Shown: in pieces, positions 5,635 to 6,054 of the stretch
Position numbering within the stretch: position 1 is the stretch's first letter
Layout: each line of letters opens with the position of its first letter
NCBI GenBank assembly: GCA_030532815.1
Contig: JAUNKI010000057.1
Coordinates: 1 to 11,189, forward strand
From: Leptotrichiaceae bacterium
GTDB taxonomy: Bacteria; Fusobacteriota; Fusobacteriia; Fusobacteriales; Leptotrichiaceae
Reading direction: 5' to 3'
DNA length: 11,189 nt
The notes under the pieces: model-generated
What the model saw: the letters and a program-made list of their open reading frames with translations, nothing else
Told to the model about the DNA's origin: nothing
The model's database searches: none
Program-made: the position numbers and the translations under genes

Positions 5635-5663
5635 TTTACAAAAAGAAATAAATATGATAAGAT
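5635..5663 (+). promoter_or_regulatory. Probable rpsO promoter (extended -10)
   Basis: TTTACA (5635-5640) as -35, a 17-nt spacer, then TGa plus TAAGAT (5658-5663) as an extended -10. Transcription would begin near 5670, leaving a leader of about 70 nt before the S15 start. A consensus TTGACA at 5609-5614 also exists but has only a poor -10 (TACTTT, 5632-5637) at proper distance. Another -10-like hexamer, GATAAT (5661-5666), overlaps, so the exact start is uncertain. Confidence 0.55.
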
Positions 5664-5682
5664 AATATGGAATTTTTTCTAT

Positions 5683-5748
5683 GAACATAAGTTGCCACTA
5701 TGTTCTTGGATTAAATAATAATAAATTAGGAGGAAAAAGAATGGCAAT
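5683..5748 (+). promoter_or_regulatory. Candidate S15 autoregulatory pseudoknot in the rpsO leader
   Basis: Stem 1 is GAACATA (5683-5689) paired perfectly with TATGTTC (5699-5705). Its 9-nt loop contains GTTGCCA (5691-5697), which can pair with TGGCAAT (5742-5748): six Watson-Crick pairs plus one G-U at 5691/5748. The second strand covers the U and G of the rpsO AUG and the next codon. The connecting loops are 1 nt (5690), 1 nt (5698) and 36 nt (5706-5741), a sound geometry for an H-type pseudoknot. The long loop carries the Shine-Dalgarno AGGAGG (5728-5733). E. coli S15 represses its own translation by stabilising a pseudoknot at its start site. The pairing is seen in the sequence; regulation by S15 is inference. 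Confidence 0.55.
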
Positions 5749-6004
5749 GAAATCAAAACAGGAAATAATCAATGCATTTGGTAAAAATGCACAGGATACG
5801 GGATCAGCTGAAGTTCAGATAGCTTTACTTACAGAAAGGATCAATCATCTGACAGAACATTTGAGAATACACCCTAAAGATGTTCATTCGAGAGTGGGAC
5901 TGTTAAAAATGGTAGGAAAGAGAAGAAGACTGCTGAACTACGTAAAAAATAGAAATGTGGATAACTACAGAGAATTAATTCAGAAATTAGGAATAAGAAA
6001 ATAA
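5741..6004 (+). CDS. rpsO: 30S ribosomal protein S15
   Basis: Primary 16S rRNA-binding protein that contacts helices 20-22 and helps form the 30S platform. The protein is 87 aa, close to the usual 88-89. Diagnostic segments are [21 protein letters not shown]-x-K-D-x-H-S-R-x-G-L-L-x-M-V, the basic [10 protein letters not shown], and the C-terminal [11 protein letters not shown]. The start at 5741 is chosen because AGGAGG (5728-5733) precedes it by 7 nt and S15 proteins begin here. The open frame back to ATG 5681 would add 20 residues unlike S15 and has no SD. It appears monocistronic, with its own promoter near 5635 and a terminator hairpin at 6024-6054. The leader may form an autoregulatory pseudoknot with the start codon. 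Confidence 0.98.
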
Positions 6005-6023: not shown

Positions 6024-6054
6024 AAGAGAGAGCGTAGACAATATGCTCTCTTTT
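6024..6054 (+). terminator. Probable intrinsic terminator after rpsO
   Basis: AGAGAGC (6027-6033) pairs with GCTCTCT (6045-6051). The stem extends outward by a G-T wobble and two A-T pairs (6024-6026 with 6052-6054) and inward by GTA/TAT with one wobble, leaving a 5-nt loop. The T-run is only TTTT (6051-6054) and overlaps the stem, so termination may be incomplete. It begins 19 bp after the rpsO stop. Confidence 0.65.

Follow-up and report, generated by a model that had tools for sequence, protein, structure and literature searches.

A conserved leader pseudoknot at the rpsO start of Fusobacteriota, a probable S15 autoregulatory element

Background

The leaders of ribosomal protein S15 mRNAs are a textbook example of one regulatory problem that has been solved by different RNA folds. 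In the E. coli rpsO leader, as presented in the accessible text of two accounts (PMC3858243, PMC8470358), the loop of a hairpin is paired to the first codons while the Shine-Dalgarno (SD) sequence lies in the long loop of the pseudoknot, and the 30S subunit is described as docking on the SD and then being trapped, the pattern with S15 being a toeprint near +10 (PMC3858243). Mycobacterial rpsO (M. smegmatis, M. tuberculosis) likewise carries a 5′ UTR pseudoknot with a U-G/C-G motif, which the accessible part of PMC8470358 reports to be necessary for S15 repression. The leaders of Geobacillus/B. stearothermophilus and Thermus, also in the rpsO 5′ UTR, are built on three-way junctions, and in Geobacillus the GU/GC motif lies about one turn from the junction (PMC4684408, as far as its accessible text goes). 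Furthermore, Slinger and Meyer argue, in the portions available of PMC4684408 and PMC5100602, that the half of the rRNA site which is read varies from one S15 protein to another.

Further S15 leaders have been added from other lineages: the accessible text of Slinger 2014 (PMC4137082) gives new ones in Alphaproteobacteria, Actinobacteria and Chlamydia, and in Table 1 of Eckert and Weinberg 2020 (PMC7247131), as far as accessible, S15 leaders are given only for Flavobacteria and for two groups of archaea. The latter work also describes, in its accessible part, a Fusobacteriales S4 leader, from the same lineage as the element analysed here but with different genes and a different protein. The accessible text of the 2023 update (PMC10931766) names no fusobacterial S15 leader. 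A 2024 study by Narunsky et al. (PMC11109978), which has Leptotrichia buccalis in its genome set and arrives at 30 ribosomal-leader candidates, mentions neither rpsO nor S15 in its main text; its supplement may list the leader. In the literature searched, mostly without subscription papers, we found no published fusobacterial S15 leader.

The fusobacterial leader that we describe shares with E. coli rpsO both the pairing of a hairpin loop with the first codons and the SD in the long loop, so that the analogy to E. coli drawn in an earlier note on this DNA holds in topology. A U.G/C-G motif occurs in stem 1 of both, in the same strand orientation, but two pairs from the loop in E. coli and 9-10 positions from the junction in Fusobacteriota. 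In contrast, stem 1 (P1) of the fusobacterial leader greatly exceeds that of E. coli in length and comprises a CUnnG/CUURG core and a lower stem, the pseudoknot helix (S2) reads UWGCC/GGCWA, and a counterpart to the alternative SD hairpin of E. coli, sought as CUURG-SD pairing, is not conserved in Fusobacteriota. In mycobacteria S2 is probably placed upstream of the start codon (PMC8470358, accessible text), whereas the fusobacterial S2 usually lies over the start region and is upstream of it in 14/88 leaders. In place of a three-way junction, of which none was noticed, the fusobacterial leader has a pseudoknot junction, with a motif spacing like that of Geobacillus. We regard it as a probable S15 pseudoknot operator, but of a distinct family; a prior listing in the supplement of PMC11109978 is possible.

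The leader pseudoknot of the window

The window, meaning the whole stretch of 11,189 nucleotides that was analysed, carries rpsO on the forward strand at 5741 to 6004, encoding the 87 aa ribosomal protein uS15. The earlier note had proposed an H-type pseudoknot at this gene, and direct reading of the letters bears out its parts. The 7-bp stem G5683-A5689/U5699-C5705 is perfectly paired, and the loop at 5691-5697 (GUUGCCA) complements 5742-5748 (UGGCAAU) through six Watson-Crick pairs and G5691.U5748, with connectors of 1 nt (5690), 1 nt (5698) and 36 nt (5706-5741). The SD, AGGAGG at 5728-5733, sits in the long pseudoknot loop ahead of the AUG at 5741-5743. The P1 hairpin is longer than the earlier note had it and spans 5672-5716 overall, as C5679-A5689 pairs with U5699-G5709 (U5682.U5706 unpaired) and a lower stem joins 5672-5678 to 5710-5716 (U5677.U5711 and U5676.U5712 unpaired in the window).

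All features lie on the forward strand. Following the 5′ strand of the lower stem come the 5′ strand of the P1 core, CUAUG (5679-5683; consensus CUnnG), and that of the upper stem, AACAUA (5684-5689), both taken from the pair table of 95 leaders; the apical loop is the 5′ strand of S2, with the conserved core UWGCC. On the descending side lie the 3′ strands of the upper stem, UAUGUU (5699-5704), of the core, CUUGG (5705-5709; consensus CUURG), and of the lower stem (5710-5716), those of the upper and lower stem being assigned from the pair table together with covariation. An A/U-rich linker (5717-5727) leads from P1 to the SD, the CUURG-SD distance being 17-21 nt in 91/95 leaders, and an SD-like motif was found in all 95 parsed leaders. 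The 3′ strand of S2, whose conserved core is GGCWA, begins at the U of the AUG and ends in codon 3. The predicted 5′ UTR (~71 nt) is accounted for by one hairpin, the linker and the SD.

We examined how much of this can be read from one sequence. The loop-start pairing of the window is mildly unusual, with shuffled loops equalling it in 3.6% of 500 shuffles. Among all 96 leaders, such single-sequence shuffles reach p 0.05 in 9 (median 0.4), with the hairpin misplaced in several rows of g13, g25, g8 and others; as few leaders are individually significant, S2 is not callable from one sequence. When 5670-5752 is folded, from the predicted transcript start and with a model that forbids pseudoknots, the P1 hairpin is the minimum free energy (MFE) structure at −12.3 kcal/mol, and the ensemble of this nested-only model is split between the P1 pair 5685-5703 (p=0.55) and the loop-start pair 5694-5745 (p=0.45). 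The isolated S2 duplex amounts to −8.1 kcal/mol. The nested fold of 5660-5790 has a z of −1.24 and an MFE structure without P1. With a single-sequence signal this weak, the case for the pseudoknot rests on relatives.

The relatives also bear on whether that nested fold, with CUUGG paired to the SD, might itself be the regulatory one. It is the MFE of 5660-5790, but in a comparison over 28 genera the CUURG-SD pairing does not exceed permutation (7142 of 10,000 draws as high), and against shuffled letters 25 of 300 were as high, whereas P1 covaries. The nested MFE is consequently disfavoured as the functional fold, and we regard such a role for it as exceedingly improbable.

Conservation of P1 and specificity for rpsO

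The sample comprised 98 Fusobacteriota genomes of 29 genera, of which 97 have an rpsO homologue; 96 leaders have a located start codon and 95 carry the element. The rows left out are G059 (no rpsO match), G057/L097 (no start located) and G001/L096 (element not found), and a partial second rpsO match in G067 was ignored. We found that the element precedes rpsO in 95/96 leaders and in 28/29 genera, the sole exception among the 96 being the leader of G001, where it was looked for and not found. The H-type pseudoknot that joins the leader loop to the rpsO start and leaves the SD free, as first seen in the window, is conserved over the same 28/29 genera.

Within the P1 core, the first pair is C-G and the fifth G-C in 95/95 leaders. 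The second pair is U.G in 72/95, U-A in 20/95, U.U in 2 and G.G in 1, and the pair that follows is C.U in all 20 of the U-A leaders and A-U in 68/72 of the U.G leaders. Above the core, upper positions 8, 9 and 10 are paired in 83, 88 and 90 of 95 leaders, with three or more Watson-Crick pair types at each. Below it, position −1 is paired in 87/95 (G-C, U-A, A-U, C-G or U.G, hence all four Watson-Crick types) and position −5 is U.G, U-A or C-G in 95/95. The weak spots of P1 are position −2, paired in 35/95, and position 6, paired in 51/95.

Pairing over the whole structure was measured on an alignment (A1) of 78 of the 95 leaders, those distinct over the hairpin. There, 84.7% of cells pair, compared with 70.6% in column shuffles (0/500 as high), and pairing falls to 31-44% when the partner strand is slid. 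On the same alignment the covariation score is 0.404 versus 0.174, and changes occur on both sides in 10/18 P1 pairs, while neither the number of double-change pairs nor the number of pair types is in excess over shuffles.

Two types of core can be told apart, U.G then A-U (68 leaders) and U-A then C.U (20 leaders), with 3 leaders of neither type and a mixed core, U.G with C.U, in four leaders of g15; one irregularity is seemingly kept beside the invariant C-G of the core. A separate deviation is seen in genus g25 (L048, L050, L052, L061, L065, L080), in which a shorter, odd upper hairpin (GGGGUGUCGCCC) is accompanied by an S2 mismatch. The g25 leaders are perhaps a decaying or remodelled version of the element.

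Upon searching the 98 genomes with a covariance model of the leader, the 95 best matches, one per genome at 45.8-91.9 bits, all fall at rpsO; as the sequences used in the model match by construction, the point of this result is the absence of other strong matches. The next match, at 40.5 bits, is not at rpsO, and of the four next matches by E-value (40.5-38.0 bits) three resemble ordinary hairpins or terminators ahead of an SD. The 40.5-bit match itself (L139 481-564, minus strand; G076:C1:554480-554563) is a hairpin with AGGAGG before an ORF beginning ATGGCT. Additionally, a strict pattern scan, which misses CUURG-SD distances below 19 nt and is no survey, gave 7 records, all of them from Fusobacteriota and none from outside the phylum.

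Pairing of the apical loop with the start region

Next to P1, we followed S2 across the same leaders. A loop GCC faces a GGC between the SD and codon 4 in 88/95 leaders, termed anchored, and 7 of 95 are not anchored on GCC/GGC. Among the anchored leaders, the variable pair of S2 takes the form A-U in 41, U-A in 34, G.U in 2 and a mismatch in 11, the mismatches falling in five genera (g25 six times, g8 twice, and g10, g24 and g27). The earlier note had proposed a search for compensatory changes in aligned leaders; they are present in both helices, but do not extend to every leader, with mismatch without compensation in these 11/88 and a complement of 4 bases only in L063. In part, and in a minority of leaders, this is the loss that the earlier note had named as refuting its reading. 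The unanchored leaders are of several kinds. In L034, L051 and L072 (the last two of g13) the helix is kept via a G.U or U.G pair. In the g14 leaders L053 and L062 a loop GGCU faces AGCU, the two having changed together, and in L063, also of g14, the UAGCC loop is kept and its 4-base complement is the AGGC at codons 4-5. In L033 (g2) the loop GCC is lost and the loop, now UUUUCAU, is complementary to the AUGAAAG of the start codon region, possibly a lineage-specific rebuilt helix.

The GGC of the 88 anchored leaders lies at AUGGC in 72, in the SD-AUG spacer in 14 (g8, g10, g16, g22, g29) and one codon into the gene in 2 (g18). Of all 95 leaders, 75 begin AUGGC, none of them with a spacer GGC, and 14 of the other 20 have a spacer GGC. 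For background, we drew on 20 stretches from 12 genomes and took their SD-led ORFs with 80 codons or more: a spacer GGC occurs in 1/163 of those not beginning AUGGC and in 1/186 overall, counted once per start. The contrast of 14/20 with 1/163 carries no simple probability because the leaders are related, and the separate displacements of GGC would by our estimate number about four.

These distributions raise the question of whether the hairpin alone is real and the loop-start pairing a by-product, rpsO often beginning AUG GCN and the displaced GGC being relics of a lost upstream AUG. The 75/95 leaders that begin AUGGC speak in its favour, as do displaced cases that resemble a lost first AUG (e.g. 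L036, AAGGCTATG) and the small number of independent S2 swaps resolved on the tree. Nonetheless, we judge it very unlikely, since the silent third base of codon 2 tracks the loop base in the 72 anchored AUGGC leaders (A/U 34, U/A 30, mismatch 8), the GGCTAA of g16 is kept in 7/7 while the bases around it and its position relative to the AUG (−6 to −10) vary, and the g14 GGCU/AGCU and g2 UUUUCAU/AUGAAAG pairs preserve complementarity with other letters. Permutation among genera argues in the same direction: with one leader per genus (28 genera), the score of each loop with its own start is 360.5 compared with a permuted mean of ~320, a value reached by 1-2 of 10,000 permutations in two runs and by 6 of 10,000 when permuting within families.

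Mapped onto the S15 gene tree, the loop base has 7 changes and its start-side partner 3. Where branches are well supported, one or two independent pairs show a joint change, none of them in opposite ways, and about one loop change is unaccompanied by a change of its partner. The independent-pairs test on this tree has too few informative pairs for significance.

S15 signature and proposed mechanism

The earlier note had seen no G-U/G-C motif in these stems. On this point we differ, as the motif is present just below the 7-bp stem, formed by C5679-G5709 and U5680.G5708 in the P1 core. Its orientation is that of 16S h22, where the counterpart is G666.U740/G667-C739, a motif that we observe, upon alignment, in E. 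coli and in 5/5 fusobacterial 16S genes, one per genome. Read 5′ to 3′ from the junction, the G-G strand has the same order in 16S and in the leader, namely junction, about one helical turn, G.U and G-C; the motif lies 9-10 positions from the junction in the leader, and in rRNA the spacing is about 10 (accessible text of PMC4684408). This G.U/G-C mimic of the 16S site occurs in the window and in 72/95 leaders. Against a reading by S15 stands the wobble, missing in 23/95. On the protein side, the S15 residues that match E. coli H42 and D49 are kept in 95/95 and S52 in 94/95, but Lys replaces Arg58 in 94/95, which goes against an E. coli-like reading, as E. coli S15 reads A-46 with Arg58 (the roles of the contact residues being those given in the accessible text of PMC8470358). 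A5690 lies in the equivalent connector of the window, but inspection by eye does not show an A conserved there throughout family f2.

From these features we consider it probable that the element is a phylum-wide cis-regulatory rpsO leader, an S15 autoregulatory pseudoknot that is E. coli-like in action and distinct from RF00114. Comparison between genomes establishes the two helices, their placement on the start region, the motif and the confinement of strong model matches in Fusobacteriota to rpsO; the transcript start, S15 binding, repression and the mode of action are what we infer. If this holds, the leader offers an rpsO regulator for a phylum in which none was found in print.

In the proposed mechanism, the transcript would start at the foot of P1 and the apical loop would pair with the coding start to form S2, closing an H-type pseudoknot with the SD in its long loop. 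Free S15, in excess over 16S rRNA, would bind two surfaces of the pseudoknot, the C-G/U.G motif of P1 and, about one helical turn away from it, the P1/S2 junction. S15 would thereby stabilise S2 and keep the AUG from the P site, so that rpsO translation stops; once 16S sites are free, S15 would leave and the 30S subunit melt S2. As to whether the 30S subunit is trapped at the free SD or simply occluded, entrapment seems somewhat likelier, being allowed by the free SD and by an SD-to-S2-core spacing of 8-12 nt in 72/88 leaders. For g16, g8 and g10 occlusion would be likelier, because the S2 core starts 2-4 nt after the SD and a bound 30S subunit may clash with it.

A pseudoknot that is real and yet not S15-responsive would account for part of the same data, setting a fixed initiation rate for a highly expressed gene as a ribosome standby site or thermosensor. 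The absence of the wobble in 23/95 leaders and the Lys in place of Arg at S15 residue 58 are in keeping with it. However, the 95 best model matches are all at rpsO, the C-G/U.G orientation and the one-turn spacing match the 16S site, and the accessible text of PMC10931766 reports S15 control for the rpsO leaders of five other bacterial species and mycobacteria, although that list is made up of validated cases, so that we hold a function without S15 to be distinctly unlikely.

A different question is whether the S15 operator that we favour was invented independently or is homologous to the E. coli leader (RF00114) and has diverged from it. The topology is the same, the E. coli loop AUUAG occurs in 11/95 leaders, and the 14 best-ranked RF00114 matches in the 98 genomes, up to 35.5 bits, lie at rpsO leaders. 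Set against this, 0/98 genomes reach the RF00114 gathering score of 39.5 bits (best 35.5, with stricter filters), and a search of the window leader with Rfam 15 gave no match up to E = 10, RF00114 included. Furthermore, four RF00114 alignments depend for the most part on the coding and SD region, their stems containing unpaired positions, the motif is 2 bp below the loop in E. coli compared with 9-10 positions in Fusobacteriota, and the CUnnG/CUURG core is missing in E. coli. Overall, we think common descent with the E. coli leader unlikely.

A more tentative extension, which we put forward as possible rather than probable, is that the operator rebuilds the whole bipartite 16S site within a pseudoknot and evolved independently in Fusobacteriota. 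The G.U/G-C motif of P1 would then be a stand-in for h22, and the P1/S2 junction, in the same orientation and one helical turn off, would replace the h20/h21/h22 three-way junction. If true, S15 would bind what is nearly a replica of its rRNA site, and the forming of this replica would close the start codon; E. coli, whose motif is 2 bp away from the junction, and Geobacillus, with a true three-way junction, would be other routes to the same surface. The rRNA-like spacing in a pseudoknot, together with the lineage-specific swap of the core from U.G/A-U to U-A/C.U, would offer a natural series for testing the idea of Slinger and Meyer that S15 proteins are not alike in the half of the rRNA site that they recognise.

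Promoter and flanking sequence

A consensus scan places a predicted sigma-70 promoter on the forward strand of the window at 5635 to 5663 (TTTACA-17-TAAGAT, with TG before the second hexamer). A promoter like it is seen in 94/94 leaders, as the best of many positions and without a shuffled control, L025 being left out at a contig edge, and the distance from the −10 to the C of CUnnG is 14-16 bases in 82/94 leaders, again without a shuffled control. Given this near-fixed distance, the transcript is predicted to begin at the foot of P1, which in the window would put its start near 5670.

An upstream ORF, or an S15 extended by 20 residues from the in-frame ATG at 5681-5683, was considered and rejected, an in-frame upstream ATG being present in 3/95 leaders. 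Gene callers may pick this ATG, which lies inside P1. After rpsO, by eye, an inverted repeat AGAGAG...CTCTCT followed by T residues (window 6025-6052) is a possible terminator; it is absent from the terminator scan, whose loop limit is 8. Finally, near rpsO in genus g19, L042 161-288 on the minus strand matches RF00558, the L20 leader, at 37.7 bits (gathering 58.7).
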